Part shown: positions 1-27,934 of the stretch, in pieces
Layout: every line of letters starts with the position of its first letter
Position numbering within the stretch: position 1 is the first letter of the stretch
Origin: a virus
Strand: one strand, 5' to 3'
IMG/VR virus record: IMGVR_UViG_3300017744_000100
Coordinates: 1 to 28,942 of that record
DNA length: 28,942 bases
Program-made: the position numbers and the translations under genes
The notes under the pieces: generated by a model
Database searches by the model: none
Told to the model about the DNA's origin: nothing
Seen by the model: only the letters and a program-made list of their open reading frames with translations

Positions 1-654
1 ACTAGTATTTGTGTTCCTATATACTTTGTCAAAGTCAAGTCCGAGCTCATCACAACACCTGGCTCCATCCTGAAGAATGTCAAACTTATCACCATCAAGA
101 TAAGGGGTAATATAGCTAACGCGCTCAGCGTCCCAATTACCTTCGGTGAAGGCTGTATAGTCAGCGTCCCTGAATTCTTGTCTACAATCAGGATAAATTG
201 CATGATCGCCTGCATGAATACCCATTGCGATATTGACTTTTGTATCTTTTTCATTTGCTACTGATAATGCTACTGCTTGAATAATTGATGAAAATATTTT
301 ATTACGGTTAGGAACAACTGTTTCCTTCATATTATCTTGTTCATAGTGTCCTTCGGGCACTTCATCTCCACCTTCTACAAGGGCACTATTAAGCATAGGG
401 GCCAAACCATCAAGTTTAATGGTTCCGTATTTTACTTTAGGGTATACTTTAACTAAATTCCCATCTAAATTAGGTTGAATAGCTTTTTCATTAATATAAT
501 CTACTAATGATTGGGCACGTTCAAGTTCTACTCTATGTTTTTGCCCATAATCGAAAGACAGTGCTGTTACCTCATAGCCATCTGCCAATAACCTTAGTAA
601 CACTGTGGAGCTGTCCATACCTCCACTTAATGATAGTACTGCTTGTTTATTCAT
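1..654 (-). CDS. queC: 7-cyano-7-deazaguanine (preQ0) synthase QueC, C-terminus cut by window edge
   Basis: QueC converts 7-carboxy-7-deazaguanine to preQ0 using ATP and ammonia. I translated this frame from the ATG at 654; it stays open to base 1 (218 codons). The PP-loop ATP-binding motif SGGMDSS lies at residues 10-16, followed by LSFDYGQKH, a typical QueC segment, and by VPNRN, IAMGIHAGDH and YPDCRQEF, which match the conserved core. The C-terminal zinc-binding cysteine cluster would lie beyond the window, so its presence cannot be judged. The start overlaps the stop of the upstream nuclease gene by four bases (ATGA), implying translational coupling. Together with the queD-like and dpdA-like genes just upstream, it points to a DNA-modification role, although host tRNA queuosine synthesis is an alternative use of the same product. 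Confidence 0.95.
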   Translation of the reverse strand, partial: MNKQAVLSLSGGMDSSTVLLRLLADGYEVTALSFDYGQKHRVELERAQSLVDYINEKAIQPNLDGNLVKVYPKVKYGTIKLDGLAPMLNSALVEGGDEVPEGHYEQDNMKETVVPNRNKIFSSIIQAVALSVANEKDTKVNIAMGIHAGDHAIYPDCRQEFRDADYTAFTEGNWDAERVSYITPYLDGDKFDILQDGARCCDELGLDFDKVYRNTNTS

Positions 655-16319: not shown

Positions 16320-17459
16320 TTAAAAATCACTACCAGCACTTCCCCCACCAAAGTTACCCCCAGCAAATCCACCATTGCCTCTAGAGCCTACAGAATTGTT
16401 TATAGGAAAATCCGCATAAAATTGGGGTTCTTGGGGCATTGCTACCCTAGTATTATCGGGTTCAGCTATAAATGGCTGAATTATAAATGGATCTGGGTTA
16501 TATATTTCAGAGGGTGTGTTTACTATAGGAGTTCCTTCTTCAGGGGAAGTTGAAGGAGGATCTACTTGCCCCTTTTTTACATTTTCAATACCTGGTAATA
16601 TAAAAGGAGCTGCTGCTAAATCAAATTCTCTATTTTCGGGGGCAAAGTCATGAATTGGCTGGAATTGACAGCTTACATCTAATACATGAGGATGTTGGGT
16701 AACACCTCCTTCTTCAAGATTGATTTCCCAAGGATAGCTTTTAGACCATTTTAAATTTATACCTGTGAAAAAGCCGGGGATATCGTTAATCCATTCACCT
16801 ATAGTTATTCTATTAAATTTACCCCTCATTCTTTTTTTATTTCCCGAATATTCAGGTGCTGTTTGGGCTACTAAATAATTAAGTTTTTGATAAAGTGGGG
16901 TAATTTCTTGTCTAGATTGAGCTGCTATTTTGAAACTAAAATTAATTTTCCTATCAAATTCATTATAGGTCCAAAATTTTTCAGCTCTACCATTATATTT
17001 GTAAGAGTTCCACCCACCAGTATAATCATCTCCTAAATCTTCTAAAAGAGCTCTAAATAATAAAACCCTTGTATCTTCGGGATCAATTGGATTAATAACG
17101 GATATTTTAAATTTAATTAAATCTTTGTAAAGAAACCCATCAGGGCCCATTAAATTACCATCATCTTGTGGTGTAATAAGAGGTAATAAATTAATTTTAT
17201 CCTGAGACCCTACATTAGGTATAGTGTAATCTATATTTCCCTCACCTTCAATTTCTATAGTAGCTGCCGTGGGGATTCCTACTCTACGTTCTATATGTTG
17301 GGTTTGGGTAGAGAAATTTTTTATATTACTATTAGATACCTTAGTATAATCATCCTCAGGAGTATTAACTAATTCATCATACTTTTCAAATATAGCATGA
17401 TTTGAACTACGAACTTTATTTCTAAAGTTTTCTTCGTTATATTTGTTAATTAAACCCAT
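16320..17459 (-). CDS. Baseplate/tail-tube junction protein (gp48/gp54-type)
   Basis: This 379-aa protein has a central segment I associate with baseplate-to-tube connector proteins of T4-like phages: FDRKINFSFKIAAQSRQEIT (residues about 170-189), followed by PLYQKLNYLVAQTAPEYSG, RITIGEWINDIPGFFTGINL and SYPWEINLEEGG. The C-terminal 100 residues are low-complexity, first Pro-rich then Gly-rich (GGFAGGNFGGGSAG). It directly follows the tape measure gene with a one-base TAATG junction, the place where tube-initiator genes often lie. Whether it equals gp48 or gp54 is not decided by these motifs. Confidence 0.65.
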   Translation of the reverse strand: MGLINKYNEENFRNKVRSSNHAIFEKYDELVNTPEDDYTKVSNSNIKNFSTQTQHIERRVGIPTAATIEIEGEGNIDYTIPNVGSQDKINLLPLITPQDDGNLMGPDGFLYKDLIKFKISVINPIDPEDTRVLLFRALLEDLGDDYTGGWNSYKYNGRAEKFWTYNEFDRKINFSFKIAAQSRQEITPLYQKLNYLVAQTAPEYSGNKKRMRGKFNRITIGEWINDIPGFFTGINLKWSKSYPWEINLEEGGVTQHPHVLDVSCQFQPIHDFAPENREFDLAAAPFILPGIENVKKGQVDPPSTSPEEGTPIVNTPSEIYNPDPFIIQPFIAEPDNTRVAMPQEPQFYADFPINNSVGSRGNGGFAGGNFGGGSAGSDF

Positions 17460-20400
17460 TATGCAAAGTTATCTGAAGGTAATCTTCTTATTGTATTAAT
17501 ATCTCCTTTTTGTCCTGAAGCACCAAAACTGTCATTGACTACTTTAACTTTACCTTGGCCTTCTTTTAATGCTGCTACCATTGGGGGTAACATTGCACTT
17601 ATAGTAGCGGTAACAGTTTCAGCAATTAATGGCTGTAAGTTATCAATAAATACTTGAGAATCGCTAATTTTTTCACCTTCTGAAGGAGTAGTTATAGGTG
17701 TTTCTATAGAAGGATCAGTTTTGGGTTCTTGTGCTTTAAATAATTTGACTTTTTCTTCCTTAATCCCCTGACCCCCAGTAACTGATATTTCAGCTCTTGC
17801 TATTTTTTCACCTATTTGTTGTAATTCAGTATTTGTACCTAATTTAGTAACTGTGTTTACAACTGCGTCTACAATTTCTAATGATTTATCAGAAAACCTT
17901 TCAATTGGTATATCTTGTTGTCCATCTCTTAAATCAACTAATCCTGCTTGGGCTTTTAGGGTATCTAAAGTAGGTGTAGTAGTAGTTAAAACCCCTATAG
18001 CAGTATTTATTTGTTCTGTAGTAAGAGTTAATATGCGTTCTAATACAGGTGTATTAACAGTTTCTGGTTCTGGTGTTGCAACGGAAATGCCTGGTACTAT
18101 TTCTGTAGGTGGTTCTAGGTTAACTGGTGTAACTTCTGCCATAGTAGTACCGGAAGCTAATTGGGTAGGAGAAATAGTTGTAGGTAATGTATTAGCAGTG
18201 ATTGCAGTTAATTTTTCTAAATTAGTAGCAGCATTAGAAGTTGCTACAGAAAGATTCTCAGTATTTGTAGTTAATGTCTCTTGGGTTGTTGTAGTAGGAG
18301 GAGTTGTGACTGAAATACCTGGAACTATTTCTGTATTGTTTAATGTGTTTTGTTTAGTAATAAGATTTGCTAATGAACTAACAGGTTCATTTATAGTAGA
18401 GGTAGTAGTAACTGGTACGGCTTCAGGAATTGTAGGTTCAACTGTTGTTGTAGTTGTTAGAGGGGATACAGTAGGGGTTTTAGGTTCAGTTGCGTTAGCA
18501 GTTGTAGTAACAACATTTACATTACCTTTTATGTCTGCTAGGGGTTCTAATACAGATGCATCTAAAGTATTTAAAGAAGTAGCTAATAAAGCAATACTAG
18601 TTGCCATTCCTTTTATAGCAGTGTTAGCCAAATCTAACTTAGGAGCCATTTCTGCTATAGGACTAAGAGCTTTACCAACTACAAGTAAACCAATAGATGC
18701 TAAACCTATTGGTATTAAAGCAGCTCCAAATACAGTTAATCCTACTGCTAGTGCGGGAAGTGCTACAGCTAATCCTAATAACTGTGCGGGGTTTAAAGCA
18801 TTGATAGATTCACTAAAAGAGGTAAGTCCAGGAGCTGCTATTTCTAAGGCTTTACCAACAGGTATTAATGCTAATCCTAATACTGCTAATGCCCCGGCGC
18901 CCATTAAAACAAATGGAGCAATAGTTCCTAAACCAGCAGCCGCAATTCCTAATAAAGTTAAAGAAGCTGCAAAACCTATCATAGCAGATACATCTAATCC
19001 CTCAAGTAAACTAAATGCAAAGGCCGCTGGGATAAGAGCAGCACCTACAGCTGCTAATCCTATAGCACCCATTAATACTTGAGGTAATATATTACCGAGT
19101 AACGCAGCAGCACCTCCTAATACTCCTAATGCTATACTAAATCCTATCATAGAACCTACATCTACACCTTTAAGTAAACTAAAGGCAGCAGCTGCGGCTG
19201 CTATGGGAACTGATAAAGCAGTTAATGCTAAGGATCCTTTAAGCATACGGGCTAGATTATCACCAAAAAATCCAATACCTCTACCTACTGCTTTAAGTCC
19301 TTTTTCAGCTAAATTACCAACAGCACCTATTATAGCAATACCCGGTGATGCAATTGCAAGAGTTAATATACCAGGAGCAACAGTTATTAATCCTAATCCC
19401 CCAAGTAATGTTTCACTTTTACCAAATTCAGCTACTCCGTCTGATATACTAGCCATAGATTCTTTTATCTTTTCAGAATTAAGACTTTCTACAGCTTTCA
19501 ATCCTAATGAACTAGCACCTAATAATAATAAACCTGGGGCGGCAATTGTTAGTCCTATAGCACCCATTATTATATTGGCATTGCCAAATTTACCTATACC
19601 TTCTGCTAACCCACCCATAGCTTCTTGAGTGGCTTCCGCTCCTATATCTGATAGATTTTTAAGACCCCCTACAGACATTGACAACAATACTAATCCTGGG
19701 GAGGCAATTAATAAGCCTACAGAACCTAAAATTACTTTTACAGTGCCAAATTCTTCTACTCCTCCAGCAATCCCCGCCATAGCTTCTTGTAATGCTTCTC
19801 CTTTAACTTCTCCTAATTTATTTAAACCATCAGCGGCTTTACTTAAAATAAATAAACCAGGTGATGCAATTGTTAAAGCTAAACCACCTTTTACTACTTC
19901 CATACTAGCAAAGGCTTTAAGGCCCTCAGCTATGTTTTTCATTTTAGTTTTAAGCATGGAACCGTCGTCCATAGAGGGAGAAATATCAGCTACAGCTGCT
20001 GTAGGATTTGTTCCAGGTTTAAATACACCTGCTGCATTAGCTGCTTCTTCACTTACCATTCTACCAGTAGCCATATCACGAAATCTACCTCCTCCAGCCA
20101 TTCTTGGATCGAATTCTATACCAGCGGCTTGGTCTTGGACGCCTGTAAAACTGTTTTTAATTCCATTAAAGAACCCCTTAAGTCCTTCACCACCACTACT
20201 AAGACCACTTACTAATTTAGTTCCTAAGTCTCCAGCTTTAGAAACTAGACTACCTATTCCCTTTCCTATATCCCCTATTTTAGTTACTATACCTCCTACA
20301 GAAGCAGATATACCTGAAAAATTAAGAGCAATAAGACCAGCTGCTATAACCTTTAATATATCAGGTACTTTAGTTAAGAGTGTAGTAAGCGCCTTAACAG

Positions 20401-22687
20401 GAGTTAAGATAAGGTTTAATGCTGATGCTACTGGTCCTATAATTACAGATGCTACATCTACAAGGGCATCTAATAATTCTCCTACAGGACCACCTAATAA
20501 TTCACCAAATAATTTTTGAAGTTTTATAACGGCATCATTAAATTTATCCTGTGCACTTCTTTGTTCTTGTATTTGAACTACTGCTTCAGCTAATGTTTCT
20601 GCTTGGCCTGTGTCTTTTAATTTTTGGGCGGCTGCTAACTGTTCATCAGTTAAATCTTTTGCATCCGCAATACCTTTATTAATGGCTTCCTGTCTAATTA
20701 AAACACCACTTAATTGATTAACATTCATACCAAGTGATTCTGCAAGTTTTTGTCTTTGTAAGACATTCATACTTTCAAATTCACTTATAGTACCTACTTG
20801 ACTTGCTATTTCTCTAGCTAATGTAGCTTGATCACCCGCTAACGCGGCCGCCCTAGCTCGTTCAAGATTTAATTGTTTACCTGTGAGTAACTCGGCTTCT
20901 AATTCGGATTCAATACTCCCCTGGAAGTCAAGGAGCTTGCTAGATATCGCGTTTAAATCGCCTAATTCTATACCTAACTTTTTAACTTCAGCTAATGTTT
21001 TACCAATAGCTTCTGGTTGTCTTCCAAATAGAATTAACTGCTCATTAGTTAGATCAGCAGTATCTTCCATTATTTCTTTCATATTAACAGTAATACCCAA
21101 TGTTTTAGCTTGTTGGGCGGCTGCTAATGCTGATTTACCCGCAAATTCAGTAGCACTTTCACCTGTTGAGGCGCTTGCTAATGTTAATTTAGCGGCTTGT
21201 TGAGCTGATAATCCTATTTTTTCTGTTAATCTTACAAAATTAACAAGTGTATCACTACTAAATTGAACCCCTAAATTTAGTTCTTTATTTAATTCTGATT
21301 GTGCTGCTAATAATCTTTCGGTATTAATGGCAGTATCCATCGTATTAGCTGAAATACTAGTAAACTCATTTCTTATTTTAGTAGCTTGGGTTTCAGTTAC
21401 ACCTAAATTTTTAGATAAATCTGTTACCTCAGAGTTAAATTGTAAACCTTTAGCTACTAAGAATGTAAATATAGCAGCAGGGTCGGTAAGTATTTCTTTA
21501 AGATTTCCAAAAGAACGTTTTAATAATTCGGCCATTATTTGGCCCCTACCAGTCATAGCTACTTGATCTGCTAAAGCGTTATTACTAGCAGCTTGGCTCT
21601 TTAATCTTTCAGCTAAAGCAGTATTACCTGCCTCTTCAGCTTCTAAAGCTTGTTTAGATAAATCTATAGCAGAATTTCTTAGGTTAGTTTGTTCTACTAA
21701 TGCCTCTCTGGCTAAATTTTTAACATCTTCTACATCTTCGGATCTAAAAATACTACTAAAACCAGGAATTTTACTAAAGCTACCTAATAATGCCCCAGTT
21801 ATTCCCATTCTTTTATTTAATTCTTTTTCTCTTTCTATAGAAGCTTGAATTTGATCTTGTAATATTTTAAAGGCTTTTATCCCTTCGGCGGTTTCAGCAT
21901 TAAATTCTATAGCGGCTAAAATACGTCTTCGTTCTAAATCTGTTAGTTGGGTTTGGGCTCCTATTTCATCCTGAAGAGCAGCTGCTTCCTCGTTTGTTAA
22001 GGTTACTCCCTGTTTAGCTTTATCTAAAGCATCATTAGCTAATTGGTTGCGTTTTCTATCGGTTTCAATTGCTGCTATTTTTTCGTTTAAAATAGTTGCT
22101 TGTTCTGAATTACCTTCTCGTATAGCTTGATTTAAATCATCTTGAGCTTCTTGTGCTTCAAAACTAAGTTGTCTAGATTTATTAGCAATAGAAACACTTT
22201 CTAAACGTTTAGCCCCTTCTTGTGCTTGTAATTGTAGTCTTTTTTCTTGGACATCAAGAACCTGTTCTTGGTTCTTCATGTATTTAACACTTCTAACGTA
22301 TGTTAAATCAGCATCATCTGCTATTGAATTAGCAGATTGTCTTATATTTTTAAAGGTTTTACCAATTCTATTACTTAAATCACTTTGGTTAGTAATAGAT
22401 TCTACAACATTATTTAGTTGTTCTAATACATTTCCTAAATCACTACTGTAATTGTTAGTGCTAAAGCTAAGACCTTCGGCTTTAATATTTAGATCATTAT
22501 AAAGGTCTTTTAAGCCTTGGGAATTTCCTTCTACGTCATTAAGAGCATCTCTATAGCTCTCAATTTCTTTTCTAATAGTTTTTTCAGATATACCCCTTTC
22601 TTTAAGAAGTTCTTCATACTCTCTTATTACAGATAGAATTTCTTCTCTTAGTTTTTGTTCTTCAGAAAGTTGGTCGTTATCAGCCAT
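17459..22687 (-). CDS. Tail tape measure protein
   Basis: At 1742 aa this is the longest gene, and its features are those of a tape measure protein. The first 350 residues are helical and coiled-coil, rich in Glu, Gln, Asn and Lys. A middle part holds ordered helices (about 400-700) and a hydrophobic stretch (about 745-790). Then come two families of hydrophobic Ala/Gly/Leu repeats, 54 aa each (starting at residue 930) and 56 aa each (starting at residue 1149). A long Thr/Pro/Val-rich linker (about 1390-1580) precedes a polar end. At the 1.5 angstrom per residue usual for tape measures the tail would be roughly 260 nm. It follows the gp26-like gene and its ATG-less extension, which fits tail-chaperone organisation. 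Confidence 0.92.
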   Translation of the reverse strand: MADNDQLSEEQKLREEILSVIREYEELLKERGISEKTIRKEIESYRDALNDVEGNSQGLKDLYNDLNIKAEGLSFSTNNYSSDLGNVLEQLNNVVESITNQSDLSNRIGKTFKNIRQSANSIADDADLTYVRSVKYMKNQEQVLDVQEKRLQLQAQEGAKRLESVSIANKSRQLSFEAQEAQDDLNQAIREGNSEQATILNEKIAAIETDRKRNQLANDALDKAKQGVTLTNEEAAALQDEIGAQTQLTDLERRRILAAIEFNAETAEGIKAFKILQDQIQASIEREKELNKRMGITGALLGSFSKIPGFSSIFRSEDVEDVKNLAREALVEQTNLRNSAIDLSKQALEAEEAGNTALAERLKSQAASNNALADQVAMTGRGQIMAELLKRSFGNLKEILTDPAAIFTFLVAKGLQFNSEVTDLSKNLGVTETQATKIRNEFTSISANTMDTAINTERLLAAQSELNKELNLGVQFSSDTLVNFVRLTEKIGLSAQQAAKLTLASASTGESATEFAGKSALAAAQQAKTLGITVNMKEIMEDTADLTNEQLILFGRQPEAIGKTLAEVKKLGIELGDLNAISSKLLDFQGSIESELEAELLTGKQLNLERARAAALAGDQATLAREIASQVGTISEFESMNVLQRQKLAESLGMNVNQLSGVLIRQEAINKGIADAKDLTDEQLAAAQKLKDTGQAETLAEAVVQIQEQRSAQDKFNDAVIKLQKLFGELLGGPVGELLDALVDVASVIIGPVASALNLILTPVKALTTLLTKVPDILKVIAAGLIALNFSGISASVGGIVTKIGDIGKGIGSLVSKAGDLGTKLVSGLSSGGEGLKGFFNGIKNSFTGVQDQAAGIEFDPRMAGGGRFRDMATGRMVSEEAANAAGVFKPGTNPTAAVADISPSMDDGSMLKTKMKNIAEGLKAFASMEVVKGGLALTIASPGLFILSKAADGLNKLGEVKGEALQEAMAGIAGGVEEFGTVKVILGSVGLLIASPGLVLLSMSVGGLKNLSDIGAEATQEAMGGLAEGIGKFGNANIIMGAIGLTIAAPGLLLLGASSLGLKAVESLNSEKIKESMASISDGVAEFGKSETLLGGLGLITVAPGILTLAIASPGIAIIGAVGNLAEKGLKAVGRGIGFFGDNLARMLKGSLALTALSVPIAAAAAAFSLLKGVDVGSMIGFSIALGVLGGAAALLGNILPQVLMGAIGLAAVGAALIPAAFAFSLLEGLDVSAMIGFAASLTLLGIAAAGLGTIAPFVLMGAGALAVLGLALIPVGKALEIAAPGLTSFSESINALNPAQLLGLAVALPALAVGLTVFGAALIPIGLASIGLLVVGKALSPIAEMAPKLDLANTAIKGMATSIALLATSLNTLDASVLEPLADIKGNVNVVTTTANATEPKTPTVSPLTTTTTVEPTIPEAVPVTTTSTINEPVSSLANLITKQNTLNNTEIVPGISVTTPPTTTTQETLTTNTENLSVATSNAATNLEKLTAITANTLPTTISPTQLASGTTMAEVTPVNLEPPTEIVPGISVATPEPETVNTPVLERILTLTTEQINTAIGVLTTTTPTLDTLKAQAGLVDLRDGQQDIPIERFSDKSLEIVDAVVNTVTKLGTNTELQQIGEKIARAEISVTGGQGIKEEKVKLFKAQEPKTDPSIETPITTPSEGEKISDSQVFIDNLQPLIAETVTATISAMLPPMVAALKEGQGKVKVVNDSFGASGQKGDINTIRRLPSDNFA
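18908..19243 (-). repeat. 56-aa (168-nt) tandem repeat in the tape measure gene
   Basis: Two full units of exactly 56 codons abut (19243-19076 and 19075-18908). They share the frame FSLL(K/E)G(V/L)DV followed by MIGF and LLG at the same spacing. A third unit begins at 18907 (LMGAGALAVLGLALIPVGKA) and then decays. These are coding repeats of hydrophobic helices, not a mobile element. Confidence 0.8.
19415..19900 (-). repeat. 54-aa (162-nt) tandem repeat in the tape measure gene
   Basis: Three full units of exactly 54 codons abut (19900-19739, 19738-19577, 19576-19415). Each has a GL(x)IA(S/A)PGL hydrophobic core, then an EAM or ESM helix, ending in EFG or KFG. A partial unit precedes them (ending at 19901) and a fourth begins at 19414 (LLGGLGLITVAPG) before diverging. 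Confidence 0.85.
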
Positions 22688-22755: not shown

Positions 22756-23034
22756 TTATATTTCATTTTTTAATCCTGAGTCCTTAGGAATGTTATCCCA
22801 ATCTATATCAAAGTCTTCAAATGTTTCCATTGCTTTTTGATCATTGGTTTTTCCATTAGCTGCTTCCTCTTGTTTTTTATGTATATCACTTATTTTATTT
22901 ATGTAATAACGCCTCATATAAACAGGCATATTCCATACATCTTCGAATAAAAATCCTCCCTTTCCCCAGTAGACGAGATCGAATACCTCGTCAAGTATTA
23001 CTGGTTTATACCTGGAGGTCAGGCCAAAAGAAAT
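22756..23034 (-). CDS. ATG-less reading frame, probable +1 frameshift extension of the tail chaperone
   Basis: Between the gp26-like stop (23006) and the tape measure gene the minus strand has an open frame from after a TGA (23035-23037) to TAA (22756-22758). It encodes about 90 residues, with segments EVFDLVYWGKGGFLFEDVW, NMPVYMRRYYINKI and a charged tail ending DWDNIPKDSGLKNEI. The W...GGF...NMP.Y.RR.Y pattern resembles small conserved proteins next to tape measure genes in T4-like phages. No ATG, GTG or TTG lies in this frame before the conserved part; the first ATG falls inside NMPVYM. It overlaps the end of the gp26-like gene in the +1 frame, so it is most simply reached by frameshifting, as in lambda gpG-gpGT (known there as -1). 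A sequencing indel or a rare start codon are alternatives. Confidence 0.7.
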   Translation of the reverse strand: MSFGLTSRYKPVILDEVFDLVYWGKGGFLFEDVWNMPVYMRRYYINKISDIHKKQEEAANGKTNDQKAMETFEDFDIDWDNIPKDSGLKNEI

Positions 23035-23767
23035 TCACTCCGATGGGAATTTGGACATCACTAACAATAGTGCCATCCTCTCCTTCGAAGTTAAACGTAA
23101 GATCTACGTCAGGGGAAATTTCTTTAATATAGTTTCTTAATGAACGAGAATCTCGTGCTAACAATTCATCATCTACAAATTCTCTAATTTTATTATTATC
23201 GGTTTCACCATCAACTGATACTATTGTATGTTTTAAACGAGTAGTTAGTTCGGCTTCACGTTTCATTTTACGAAGATTTTTAAGTTCAAGCTGGATGTTG
23301 TCTTCATCTCCCTGGCTTAATAATTTAAATACTACTTTCCGGCCTGAAAGGGGTAATTCATATTCAAATAAATTATTACCGGGTTCTTTAACTAAACCTT
23401 CATTAAGTTCTTTATCATTAACTAATGATAAATCAACCATTACTTCTTCATCTTCATTAGTGCCAGGATTAGTATAATTAAATACATAATGTGGGCCATA
23501 ACCATAAACCCTTGCAGCTACCATAATAGCATTTTTATCACCAATTAAAATATCTTTAAAGCTAATAGGTGAAACAACTAGTGCTTCAAGTAATTTATCA
23601 ATCACTACACCGGATTTAATATAAGTTTGGTTAGTGAGGATATCTTCCTCTTTTGCGGTCATATATTTAACCTCAACTGTGCCATTTCTAAGAGGAGATC
23701 CTTCAGGATACAGAAGACCTTTTGATGGTAGGCTTACCATTTCTGTTTGTAACTTTTTTTCAGCCAT
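23006..23767 (-). CDS. T4 gp26-like baseplate hub / tail assembly chaperone
   Basis: This protein matches the T4 base plate protein (gp26-like) family: SLPSKGLLYPEGSPL near the N-terminus, then VKYMTAKEEDILTN, VVIDKLLEALV, DILIGDKNAIMVAARVYGYG and a DLSLVNDKEL segment. It lies just before the tape measure gene. An ATG at 23785 would give 259 aa, but I prefer the second ATG at 23767 (MAEKK, 253 aa). The promoter-like CAATAA element is then 18 bases from the start, as at the first sheath gene, and the first ATG touches that element. The terminal codons TTC TTT TGG CCT form a candidate +1 slippery site leading into the next frame. Confidence 0.82.
   Translation of the reverse strand: MAEKKLQTEMVSLPSKGLLYPEGSPLRNGTVEVKYMTAKEEDILTNQTYIKSGVVIDKLLEALVVSPISFKDILIGDKNAIMVAARVYGYGPHYVFNYTNPGTNEDEEVMVDLSLVNDKELNEGLVKEPGNNLFEYELPLSGRKVVFKLLSQGDEDNIQLELKNLRKMKREAELTTRLKHTIVSVDGETDNNKIREFVDDELLARDSRSLRNYIKEISPDVDLTFNFEGEDGTIVSDVQIPIGVNFFWPDLQV
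23024..23032 (-). other. Candidate +1 ribosomal frameshift site TTC TTT TGG
   Basis: In the gp26-like frame the codons read TTC TTT TGG, eight codons before the stop. A phenylalanine tRNA on TTT can re-pair with the overlapping TTT one base on, putting the ribosome in the frame of the ATG-less ORF with GGC as next codon. The stop codon of that frame (TGA, 23035-23037) lies upstream of this point, so the shift must occur between it and 23006. Confidence 0.5.
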
Positions 23768-23785
23768 GTTTATAACTTTAGTCAT

Positions 23786-23863: not shown

Positions 23864-24367
23864 TTAGAATCTTAATAAACAGTAATCCATTGCAAGAGTC
23901 ATGCTGATTGTTTGGGCAGTATTAGCATTTGACCAATCGGCATCTGAAAAGTCAACACTCTTAATGAATGTTCCTTTACATTCCCACTCTTCAACAACAT
24001 CACCAACTGGACCTAAAGAACGGAATTTAACATCTTTTTTATAAAAATCCTGATAACCATCTCTACCAGTTACGGATTCATGGTGTAGTCTAAACCAGTT
24101 CATTACAGCTTGGGCACCTGAAGGGTTAATAGGATCATATAATTCACATGTAATATCTCCCCAATTAACTTTACCTTTTAACTTTCTTTTGAGGTTAATG
24201 TGGTCAAGAGTAATTTCCTCGAATGAGGGTTTTGGTCTGTCAGCTTTTTTAACTAAGTAAGCTGGTACTCCTTCGATATCGAAGTAAAATCTGTTTTTAG
24301 TTTTGGGTTCGTATGTTTTATAAAACATACCGATTGTGCCCATATCATCGTTCTTTAAAATTCCCAT
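23864..24367 (-). CDS. Tail tube protein (T4 gp19-like)
   Basis: This 167-aa protein fits the contractile-phage tail tube family. It has FYFDIEGVPAYLVKKADRP near residues 28-46, then ITLDHINLKRKLKGKVNWGD and ITCELYDPINPSGAQAV, then WECKGTFIKSVDFSDADW close to the end, a series of strands typical of gp19-like proteins that stack as hexamers inside the sheath. It lies directly downstream of two sheath genes, the standard order. The leader is A-rich (ACAAAAATAAA before ATG) and a promoter-like element lies upstream, overlapping the end of the sheath gene, so the tube can be transcribed apart from the sheath. It ends at a strong terminator. Confidence 0.93.
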   Translation of the reverse strand: MGILKNDDMGTIGMFYKTYEPKTKNRFYFDIEGVPAYLVKKADRPKPSFEEITLDHINLKRKLKGKVNWGDITCELYDPINPSGAQAVMNWFRLHHESVTGRDGYQDFYKKDVKFRSLGPVGDVVEEWECKGTFIKSVDFSDADWSNANTAQTISMTLAMDYCLLRF

Positions 24368-24407: not shown

Positions 24408-26141
24408 TTAGTCTTCAAAAGAAGCACCAGTTGGGGTTAAAACAAAGTCAAGAGCTATAAACTCTGCTGTTTTAGTTGGTTGCAGGAACACTTGTCCTAC
24501 AAGTTTATTTTGGTCGATAACATCTGAAGTGTTTAATTGACCATCCATTTTAACTTGGAAAGCATATAATCCTTGTCTTTGGACTAAGTTTTCTAAGTAT
24601 GGGTTAACTTTCCTTAAGAATCTTTGGCGAGTTTCTTCGGTGTTTTGCTCAAAAACAAGTCCTTGGGCAAATCCATTGACTGTGTCTTTTACGTCAAGTA
24701 ATAAACGTCTAACGTTGACTCTATCGAGCGCACTTGCGGCTTGTTGAAGCGTTTTTTGCCCGAATACTACTACACCTTGTCCTGGGAAAGTTGCTAATGG
24801 ATTAACTTTAGATGTATAAAGATCATCACGTTGAGCTTTACTTAATTTAGTTTCAACTTTAGGTACGTTATTTAATCCACCTCTAGTTAAACCAGCAGGA
24901 GCAAACCATGGGGCAGCAATACTATCATTTTTAGCATATACACCCGGAATTATAGTTGAAGCAGGTGCCCAAACATTTTTACCTAAAACCCTACTATTTA
25001 CCTGTACCCATGGCCAGTAAGAGGCAGCGAATGAAGTATCTCTTTCTTCAGCTTCGTTTTTAACATTAGCTACAGTTGCACCATATCCATATAAATCTAC
25101 TACAGCCATATAATCACCTCTAGTTTCGGCATTTTCAATAATAGTAGTAATAGTGCTGTTATGGTCATTATTATTTAATCCAGGAGCTATAAGTGTTTTA
25201 AATTTATATTCTTCCTTATTAGTTAATATAGAAATTGCTTTCGTATAATCTCCAGGTGCTAAACCTTGGATATTAGTTGCACTTGATGCTGATCCATAGA
25301 TAGCAGCAACACTTCCAAAATTATCACCTACACCTGTACCAAAGGTTCCAGATCCTGATTGTGGGAGTAATTGGTCATAAGCTAATCCATCTGAGTTTCT
25401 GGTATTTACGCTACCATTAGCTGCTAAATACTGGTAAGTTGGACTATTTACAGATGAAATTCTTATAAATTTAGACTTGTTAGGATATTCACCTGATAAT
25501 GTTACACTAGATACTCCATTAGTAGTAGTTACAGCTTGTGACTGATCACCTATGGCTTTAGCAATGTAGTTATTAGATAAAGGATCCAAGGATAAATTAG
25601 TAAATTGTTCTAAAATAAGAGGTTTTGAGTTTGTGTCATCCCCCCTTCTAACTACTAAGCTAAAAGTACCAGCTTTTCTATTTACATTAGTTACTTCCCA
25701 TTTGAAATTATCCTTGTTGCCAGTAGCACTGTTTAAATACTCTCCTTTACCTAAGGTACTAATTACAAAGGGATCATTAGTATTATTAGCAGCACCCCCT
25801 ATTGAAGCGGATATAGAAGTTATTGCAGAAGAAGTTGCGGCTGTAAATGTACTTGCATCAGGTGCAACTCTTATTACAAGAGCACTAGCACCACCATTAT
25901 CGAAGTAGTTTTTAACTGCTAGGTTTGTGTATAATTCATAAGCTTGAGAGCCCGATTTTATTACGGTTCCAAAAATATCTTTAAATTCTTGGTAGTTATT
26001 AATCCCTGTAGGGATTTCTACAGGACCTCTTGCAGTAGGACCTATAATAGCCATTCCTGAAGGGTCTGTTCCTGGGGTTATGTATGATTTATCTACTTCT
26101 TGTAGTAATACACCAGGTGATACTAAAGTTTCTGTTGCCAT
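24408..26141 (-). CDS. Tail sheath protein, downstream copy
   Basis: This 577-aa protein is a contractile tail sheath subunit. The N-terminus (LVSPGVLLQEVDKS) is the usual sheath opening. The C-terminal half has SFAASYWPWVQVN, VWAPAS.IIPGVYAKND, SKVNPLATFPGQGVVVFGQ, LDRVNVRRLLLDVK and EQNTEETRQRFLRKVNPYL, all standard sheath core motifs. It ends VLTPTGASFED. It starts 20 bases after the other sheath gene stops and no promoter-like element lies between, so they are probably co-transcribed. N-terminus, C-terminal third and leader are almost the same as in the other copy, while the middle (about 90-300) differs. This suggests duplication with free divergence of the surface domains. Confidence 0.93.
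   Translation of the reverse strand: MATETLVSPGVLLQEVDKSYITPGTDPSGMAIIGPTARGPVEIPTGINNYQEFKDIFGTVIKSGSQAYELYTNLAVKNYFDNGGASALVIRVAPDASTFTAATSSAITSISASIGGAANNTNDPFVISTLGKGEYLNSATGNKDNFKWEVTNVNRKAGTFSLVVRRGDDTNSKPLILEQFTNLSLDPLSNNYIAKAIGDQSQAVTTTNGVSSVTLSGEYPNKSKFIRISSVNSPTYQYLAANGSVNTRNSDGLAYDQLLPQSGSGTFGTGVGDNFGSVAAIYGSASSATNIQGLAPGDYTKAISILTNKEEYKFKTLIAPGLNNNDHNSTITTIIENAETRGDYMAVVDLYGYGATVANVKNEAEERDTSFAASYWPWVQVNSRVLGKNVWAPASTIIPGVYAKNDSIAAPWFAPAGLTRGGLNNVPKVETKLSKAQRDDLYTSKVNPLATFPGQGVVVFGQKTLQQAASALDRVNVRRLLLDVKDTVNGFAQGLVFEQNTEETRQRFLRKVNPYLENLVQRQGLYAFQVKMDGQLNTSDVIDQNKLVGQVFLQPTKTAEFIALDFVLTPTGASFED
24537..24610 (-). repeat. 74-bp block identical to 26291-26364
   Basis: A 74-bp stretch of this sheath gene is base-for-base identical to the other copy, flanked by sequence that differs at many silent sites. 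It encodes the conserved C-terminal segment around NPYLENLVQRQGLYAFQVKM. Confidence 0.85.
24694..24812 (-). repeat. 119-bp block identical to 26448-26566
   Basis: A 119-bp perfect match between the two sheath genes covers SKVNPLATFPGQGVVVFGQ through NVRRLLLD. The 83 bases between this block and the 74-bp block differ at many silent positions, so similarity is patchy rather than graded. Confidence 0.88.
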
Positions 26142-26161: not shown

Positions 26162-27934
26162 TTAGTCTTCAAAGTTAGCTCCTGTTGGGGTAATTACGAA
26201 ATCAAGAGCTATAAATTCCGCTGTTTTAGTAGGTTGTAAGAATACCTGTCCTATTAATTGGTTTTTATCAATTATATCGGCGGTATTATTTTGACCATCC
26301 ATTTTAACTTGGAAAGCATATAATCCTTGTCTTTGGACTAAGTTTTCTAAGTATGGGTTAACTTGTCTTAGGAAACGTTGACGAGTTTCTTCTGTGTTTT
26401 GTTCAAAGACTAATTTTCTAGAGAATCCATCAACCGTATCCTTCACATCAAGTAATAAACGTCTAACGTTGACTCTATCGAGCGCACTTGCGGCTTGTTG
26501 AAGCGTTTTTTGCCCGAATACTACTACACCTTGTCCTGGGAAAGTTGCTAATGGATTAACTTTAGAAGTATATAAAGTATCTCTTTGTGCTTTACTTAAT
26601 TTAGTTTCAACTTTTTTAACACCTGTTACTTTACCACGGGTATTACCTGCGGGTGCAAACCATGGGGCTGCAATACTATCATTTTTAGCATATACACCAG
26701 GTACTATTACAGAAGCGGGTGCCCAAACATCTCTTCTTAAATTTATGCTGGTTACTTGAGCCCATGGCCAGTAAGAAGCAGCAAATGAGGTATCTAATTC
26801 CTCTGTTTTTGTTGTTACTGTGTTTATAGTAGTAGTTCCATATGATACGGGGTCTACTAAAAATAAACTATCACCACGTGTTTCAGTATTAGCAATAATA
26901 GTAGCTATATCTGTAGAATGGTGTTCTTGGTTAAAACCAGGAACTATAAGGGTTTTAAATTTAAATTCTTCTTTATTAGTAAGAATATTAACAGCATCAT
27001 CATAATCAGATGTTTTTAATCCCTGAATATTAACGTTAGCTCCTTCAGTAGAGGCACCTGCATATTGACCATAATCACCTGCTTCGCCTGTAGGAAGTAA
27101 TGAACCTACACCCCCAAAGAAAGCACCACTTTGTGCTGTAGGGAGAGAAGCTGAATAAGAAGTACCTGCAGCGTCTGTTTGTACTGCGTTATTGATTGAA
27201 TATTCATAAGTAGGTAAATTTACATCTTTTACTCTTATAAATTTAGACTTATTAGGGTATTCACCAGAAACTATAATACCAGTAGCATCACTATTTTTAG
27301 TAATTTTTTGATCACCAATGGCCTTAGCAACATAATTAGGTGAAAGGGGATCTAAAGATACACCAGTAAATTGTTCTAAAATAACAGGCTTAGAAGTTGA
27401 ATCATCTCCTCTTCTAACAACTAAAGTAAATGTACCTGATTTATTGTTTATGTTTGTAATTTCCCACCTAAAGTTATCTGCAGATCCTGATTTTAAAATT
27501 CCTCCGGCAAATTTCTCGGGTGCCGTGGTTAATGCGATTGCATTATTGAGACCTTCACCCTCACCTATAGTTTCCAGGGTAAAGGGTTGTGTACTGCTTT
27601 TTGCAGAAGCGGATACATGTGTGCTATCGGCATAATCCCAATTAGCTGAAGAGGATACTACTCTAACTACTAAAAGGCTGGCACCCCCATTATTAAAATA
27701 GTTTCTAGCGGCTAAGCTAGTAAAGTATTCATATCCTTGGGAGGCAGATTCAAATGTAGTTCCATAGGTATCTTTAAATTCTTGGAAATTATTAATTAAT
27801 GTAGGTACCTCAACGGGTCCTTTTACAGCAGGACCAATAATTGCTAATCCTGAAGGGTCTGTTCCAGGAGTAATGTAGCTTTTATCTACTTCCTGAAGTA
27901 ATACACCCGGTGATACTAAAGTTTCTGTTGCCAT
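26162..27934 (-). CDS. Tail sheath protein, upstream copy
   Basis: This 590-aa protein is the second tail sheath subunit, upstream in transcription. It shares the first 29 residues with the other copy except for one change (DPSGL for DPSGM), and the same C-terminal core motifs, ending VITPTGANFED. The middle (about 90-310) is clearly different, including an extra GEGEGLNNAIALTTAPEKFA stretch. It is preceded by a hairpin terminator and a TATTTGTATACAATAAC element, with leader AAAAATAAA before ATG, a strong Bacteroidota-type initiation region. Both sheath genes are intact, so the virion may use both, or one may be an alternative form. Confidence 0.93.
   Translation of the reverse strand: MATETLVSPGVLLQEVDKSYITPGTDPSGLAIIGPAVKGPVEVPTLINNFQEFKDTYGTTFESASQGYEYFTSLAARNYFNNGGASLLVVRVVSSSANWDYADSTHVSASAKSSTQPFTLETIGEGEGLNNAIALTTAPEKFAGGILKSGSADNFRWEITNINNKSGTFTLVVRRGDDSTSKPVILEQFTGVSLDPLSPNYVAKAIGDQKITKNSDATGIIVSGEYPNKSKFIRVKDVNLPTYEYSINNAVQTDAAGTSYSASLPTAQSGAFFGGVGSLLPTGEAGDYGQYAGASTEGANVNIQGLKTSDYDDAVNILTNKEEFKFKTLIVPGFNQEHHSTDIATIIANTETRGDSLFLVDPVSYGTTTINTVTTKTEELDTSFAASYWPWAQVTSINLRRDVWAPASVIVPGVYAKNDSIAAPWFAPAGNTRGKVTGVKKVETKLSKAQRDTLYTSKVNPLATFPGQGVVVFGQKTLQQAASALDRVNVRRLLLDVKDTVDGFSRKLVFEQNTEETRQRFLRQVNPYLENLVQRQGLYAFQVKMDGQNNTADIIDKNQLIGQVFLQPTKTAEFIALDFVITPTGANFED
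26291..26364 (-). repeat. 74-bp block identical to 24537-24610
   Basis: This is the upstream-sheath partner of the 74-bp perfect repeat in the downstream sheath gene. The following base differs on both sides. Confidence 0.85.
26448..26566 (-). repeat. 119-bp block identical to 24694-24812
   Basis: This is the upstream-sheath partner of the 119-bp perfect repeat. The spacing between the two perfect blocks (83 bases) is the same in both genes, so the copies are collinear here. Confidence 0.88.

Follow-up and report, generated by a model that had tools for sequence, protein, structure and literature searches.

A conserved +1 frame overlap points to programmed frameshifting in a T4 gp26-like tail assembly chaperone gene

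INTRODUCTION

How is a conserved protein segment made that overlaps the end of a T4 gp26-like gene in the +1 frame and has no standard start codon of its own? This question is raised by a stretch of viral DNA of 28,942 nucleotides (IMG/VR record IMGVR_UViG_3300017744_000100, positions 1 to 28,942; hereafter the window), for which an earlier note had proposed a programmed +1 frameshift in the tail chaperone. Frameshifting in tail chaperone genes is conserved across long-tailed phages, with T4 as an exception (review, PMC5009743). We analyzed the locus and its relatives and conclude that the conserved +1 programmed frameshift predicted from them is real and very probably functional.

RESULTS

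An open +1 frame between the tail tube and tape measure genes

In the window, the gp26-like gene is placed between the tail tube and tape measure genes. This is where lambda-type phages make their chaperone pair, an assignment of the earlier note that is borne out by this position and by the homologies to gp26 and to gp51 and tail assembly chaperones described below. The region comprises the following features:

23864..24367, minus strand: tail tube gene, next upstream (phrog_4542, E 2.9e-28)
23006..23785, minus strand: gp26-like gene, short product (TAC-N), 259 aa, C-terminus ...GVNFFWPDLQV*
23008-23006, minus strand: stop codon TAA of the gp26-like gene
23019..23032, minus strand: conserved slip region TTC TTT TGG CCT GA, near-invariant in relatives
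23026..23029, minus strand: proposed slip tetranucleotide TTT_T (TTT 23029-23027 plus T 23026), on which a Phe-tRNA would re-pair one base further on
22756..23025, minus strand: gp51-like C domain in the +1 frame, 89 codons plus stop (coding part 23025-22759, stop 22758-22756), readable only as an extension of the gp26-like gene
22756..23785, minus strand: proposed frameshift product TAC-NC (P0001), 342 aa, junction ...VNFF-GLTSR...
22955..23018, minus strand: possible hairpin 3' of the slip site, close clade (weak)
17459..22687, minus strand: tape measure gene, next downstream (BLASTP match to the tape measure annotated in Flavobacterium phage immuto, 7e-44)

The gp26-like gene ends in ATC GGA GTG AAT TTC TTT TGG CCT GAC CTC CAG GTA TAA, and the open +1 frame starts near 23034, with a post-slip peptide of 89 aa (GLTSRYKP...LKNEI). 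As the earlier note had described, the +1 segment overlaps the 3' end of the gp26-like gene and stops just before the tape measure gene; the coordinates are right and the gap amounts to 68 bases. One step of four bases at the Phe codons joins both parts into a single protein of 342 aa, and slipping on either of the two Phe codons would give an identical product. The predicted peptide across the fusion junction reads ...GVNFFGLTSR in the window and ...GVSFLGLTPEYR in phage immuto. The 14-mer TTYTTTTGGCCTGA has a single match in the window and was obtained in 0 of 100 shuffles.

The N and C domains resemble T4 gp26 and gp51

The gp26-like protein of the window matches phrog_150, the T4 baseplate hub gp26 family (E 9e-10), as do 37 of 37 gp26-like relatives. 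The Pfam family T4_baseplate (PF12322) was matched by 29 of these 37 relatives and not by the window protein itself. An AlphaFold model of the N form (pLDDT 91.7) found viral matches among gp26-like baseplate hub proteins, e.g. that of SP-15 (E 7e-19), and its best match in the PDB was the HK97 tail assembly chaperone 2ob9, which is not significant (E 0.92, prob 0.44). A sequence search of the PDB gave no match, and AlphaFold, run on the fused protein as a single sequence, gave an uninformative model (pLDDT 34).

For the +1 domain, a profile of 128 sequences was compared to a gp51 profile comprising cyanophage gp51, the KVP40-like ORF, ORFs of Ackermannviridae and Agrobacterium phages and the C terminus of T4 gp51, which resulted in a match of 93% probability (E 2.4e-7); T4 gp51 by itself gave no significant match in a direct comparison. 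Among 44 members of the domain family, DUF6760 was matched by 11 (best 6.6e-5), phrog_634 gp51 by three (best 4.7e-4) and tail assembly chaperone families by a few. Judged by profile, the +1 C domain is homologous to the gp51 of T4 and cyanophages.

The frame relation is conserved among relatives

Viral contigs were searched with the gp26-like protein, which matched at least 599 stretches of which 80 loci were kept, and with the +1 segment, which gave 23 loci, some sharing contigs with the gp26-like matches. In this first set the +1 frame holds the homologous domain in 101 of 101 fetched loci with a complete and correctly called gp26 end, a count that leaves out L004 (incomplete), L001 (the window) and L032 (gp26 stop miscalled). 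With two broader scans of viral sequences and one of genomes, the collection grew to 147 non-redundant loci (at most 90% identity, i.e. loci differing by more than 10% over 140 nt), namely the window and about 146 distinct relatives, and the corresponding segment is in the +1 frame in these 147 loci (tblastn of relatives). They derive from metagenomes and from phages of Flavobacterium, Microcystis, Listeria, Bacillus and Streptococcus, with the identical arrangement in the isolates immuto (Flavobacterium), Mel-JY01 (Microcystis), LIS04 (Listeria), SP-15 (Bacillus) and GXN1 (Streptococcus). The +1 frame is open in Rhodothermus phage RM378, too, but its segment aligns poorly and this phage counts least. 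For RM378 and for those SP-15-like contigs with a weak or no C-domain score, the count relies on position, an open +1 frame and the match to gp26; when SP-15 was the only seed, a search yielded just SP-15 itself.

Could the frame change simply be an assembly or sequencing indel that split one gene? Beyond the frame change itself nothing speaks for this, and the identical frame relation in more than 100 independent contigs and finished isolate genomes refutes it, such that its probability is next to nil. Of the two findings that the earlier note had named as speaking against a frameshift, neither was encountered: there is no indel, and the clade has no obligatory ATG-started version of the downstream gene.

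The +1 segment falls below the Pfam cut-off, as might be expected if it were a decayed remnant or a random open frame. Among 12 close relatives, however, the variable sites past the gp26 stop are distributed 10/6/32 on +1 codon positions 1/2/3, and this third-position bias argues for selection on the protein encoded in the +1 frame. The motif is furthermore kept in phages whose hosts belong to several phyla, and the profile match to gp51 is significant. Hence, decay or chance is refuted by conservation and carries a negligible probability. In-frame fusions of gp26 and the C domain were sought among the relatives as proof of a fused product, and none was found.

The slip codon is constrained beyond its coding function

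In the relatives, both frames overlap and the slip site is kept. Across the 147 non-redundant loci the slip codon is TTT in 134, CTT in 11 and another codon in 2. The commonest contexts are TTTTTT TGG CCT (89 loci), TTTTTT TAC CCT (24) and TTTCTT TGG CCT (7), while the form of the window, TTCTTT TGG CCT, is present in 4 of the 147; the SP-15-like phages have TTTTTT CGT, TTCTTT CGT and TTTTTT CAC among their site forms. The base following the slip codon permits tRNA re-pairing, with the variants TTT_T, CTT_T, TTT_C and TTT_A. The earlier note had named TTC TTT TGG as the slip site; the slip codon in it is indeed conserved, but the site is better described as UUU_U re-pairing, with CUU_U, UUU_C and UUU_A in relatives. 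Locus L282 (TTT TTT TTC CCT) stands outside the TTT/CTT tally because the codon rule picked the wrong member of its Phe triplet. In LR756508 (L107, 4713-4753) the +1 relation is kept, but its site TTT CTA TTC CCT is a genuine misfit.

Elsewhere in the same ORFs, Phe is encoded by TTT in only 77% of cases (nominal p 7.6e-16, a value that ignores shared ancestry and is not to be taken literally). When the main clade was aligned codon by codon, the slip TTT (118/118) and the CCT that is the next-but-one codon after it (129/129) showed the largest codon constraint among 96 testable columns, which places the slippery site at the frame overlap under selection in this clade. Dual coding can account for the constraint on CCT. 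It does not account for the T at position 3 of the slip codon, since the +1 protein begins after this codon; this T is the base needed for tRNA re-pairing.

A run of seven T is present in 114 of the 147 loci and would suit transcriptional slippage, in which mRNAs of altered length would bring the C domain in frame. The window, however, has only four T, and 23 of the 147 loci have at most four, with interruptions by C that keep YTT_T. That C is tolerated at the first bases fits codon re-pairing and not slippage on a homopolymer, and we regard a transcriptional origin as highly unlikely.

A single gene with two products is the favored reading

The frame relation, the slip codon and the C domain are conserved, and a standard independent start is absent in the window. 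With these patterns in hand, we consider it very likely that the locus is one tail assembly chaperone gene from which +1 programmed frameshifting by P-site slippage would yield a short and a long form. We infer the slippage itself, where exactly and how often it occurs, and what both forms do, as follows. The gp26-like gene and the +1-frame segment would constitute a single tail assembly chaperone gene. The majority of ribosomes would terminate at 23006 and release the 259-aa N form. In a minority, at TTC TTT TGG, the Phe-tRNA in the P site would let go of one UUU and pair with the UUU that overlaps it one base further downstream, and the slipped ribosomes would continue with GGC CUG ACC... 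to produce the 342-aa N+C form. By analogy to lambda gpG/gpGT, the tape measure protein would carry a coat of N forms, and the few long molecules would use their C domain to recruit tail tube subunits.

The main alternative to such a fused product is that the C domain is a separate protein with a non-canonical start of its own, e.g. the CTG of GGC CTG, coupled to gp26 termination. In other T4-like lineages an ATG-started gp51 ORF does lie near or overlapping the gp26 stop, and the CTG within the overlap is present in most close relatives. This codon, however, is missing in SP-15, LIS04, GXN1, RM378, Mel-JY01 and the TTTTTTTACCCTTCC group. The claim of the earlier note that the conserved frame lacks a usable start was confirmed: it has 89 codons without ATG, GTG or TTG before the domain and is conserved in 147 loci. 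No GTG or TTG was found in the +1 frame of the window, and the first ATG is located 79 nt past the gp26-like stop, within the conserved NMP motif. Likewise, 51 of the 147 loci have no ATG, GTG or TTG before the domain and 109 have no ATG. In the other 96 such a codon is present upstream of the domain in the +1 frame, and in 25 of these with an SD-like match. An independent standard start codon is thus rejected for the window and not for every relative. Since a separate start would also leave the fixed +1 register and the preference of TTT over TTC at the slip codon unexplained, we consider it improbable.

Stimulatory elements appear sparse. An SD-like sequence upstream of the slip site was found in only 17 of the 147 loci, with no universal stimulator, and downstream folding was weak and gave no signal shared by the loci at large (mean z about -0.5). 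In the close clade, the possible hairpin 3' of the slip site has a z of -2.23 for 70 nt and 16 consensus pairs, one of them with a compensatory change.

DISCUSSION

The locus shares with lambda gpG/gpGT and P2 E/E' the gene position between tail tube and tape measure as well as, by prediction, a short and a C-extended form with one start and an overlap at the 3' end (PMC5009743). Lambda and most other cases use a -1 shift, whereas here a +1 shift on YUU_U is predicted and the N protein belongs to the T4 gp26 family; with its C domain in the +1 frame, the window departs from the lambda-type -1 scheme. The earlier note had considered a +1 version in a T4-like phage to be notable. This stands with regard to the T4 gp26 family, but a +1 precedent for tail chaperones had already been proposed for HSTV-2 and the HF1 group (PMC5009743, PMC7230728). 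For the HF1-group haloviruses, in a comparison of six HF1 genomes, a +1 shift was predicted at a TTT-CGC motif at the equivalent position (PMC7230728), and the HSTV-2 tail chaperone is likely a +1 case (PMC5009743). HF1 and HSTV-2 are archaeal viruses, and the main motif here is instead TTT_TGG or TTT_TAC. The TTT_CGT of the SP-15-like relatives corresponds to TTT-CGn, a +1 motif that has been cited for viruses of eukaryotes, with the influenza PA-X site being UCC_UUU_CGU (PMC7230728). A +1 shift in phage structural genes is also found in the Listeria phages PSA, A118 and A500, but in capsid and major tail genes, on a proline CCC slip and in unrelated proteins (PMC5009743). The site described here combines a YUU codon in the P site with neither an A-site stop nor a conserved SD-like stimulator. 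In shifts of the RF2 (CUU_UGA) and PA-X type, P-site slippage likewise moves a YUU-paired tRNA to the overlapping codon.

The gp26 family and a gp51-matching C domain are common to the window, T4 (Straboviridae), cyanophages and KVP40-like phages. In T4, gp51 is a separate, divergently transcribed gene of 249 aa, whereas here a separate standard start is absent. Cyanophage gp51 is, unlike the C domain of the window, an ORF of 54-63 aa with its own ATG, and short ATG-started ORFs in differing frames encode gp51 or its equivalent in cyanophages, a KVP40-like phage and a phage of the Ackermannviridae. In the cyanophages S-SSM7 and S-SCSM1, Vibrio phage PC-Liy1 and Agrobacterium phage Atu_ph07 (L116, L117, L119 and L115) the gp26 end carries a conserved T TTT TTC G; their gp51-like ORF nevertheless has its own ATG, in a frame that varies between phages. 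In a related clade, L206-L280 (with LR756511), it is the -1 frame that encodes the C domain; the SKFFLP junction is conserved there and T-rich sites are present, TTTTTCTTCCC among them, which probably reflects -1 frameshifting of the same pair of gp26 and C domain.

From these comparisons we think it likely that a T4-related supergroup with hosts among Bacteroidota, Cyanobacteria and Firmicutes makes the gp26/gp51 pair from one gene by +1 shifting on YUU_N, with sister groups using a C domain in the -1 frame, separate ORFs (cyanophages, KVP40-like phages) or unlinked genes (T4); the direction of recoding would have switched while the two-form product was kept. This would place a conserved predicted +1 frameshift with a gp51-like C domain inside the T4 gp26 family and offer a direct path by which the separate gp26 and gp51 of T4 could have arisen from a single recoded gene. 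A 2022 study by Vladimirov, Gautam and Davidson (Virology 566:9-15) reportedly names the tail chaperones of T4-like phages, its title proposing a non-frameshifting mechanism. Our literature search, which covered that study by its title, found no published report of a +1 shift in the gp26 family. Since cultured phages carry the site, and since it is simple and short (YUU_U, without an obvious stimulator), it can easily be tested.

As the earlier note had expected of gene callers, annotation usually misses or truncates the predicted long product: in the public records of immuto (L106), LIS04 (L108) and SP-15 (L111), the C domain is absent or reduced to a short fragment.

Two further observations concern the remainder of the window. 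Tandem tail sheath genes are located at 24408-26141 and 26162-27934 (minus strand), both matching Phage_sheath_1 and Phage_sheath_1C; their N termini and C-terminal parts are near-identical, i.e. the sheath gene is duplicated. At 1-654 (minus strand) lies a QueC-like gene (PF06508, E 3.2e-35), which suggests deazaguanine modification of the phage DNA or queuosine supply.
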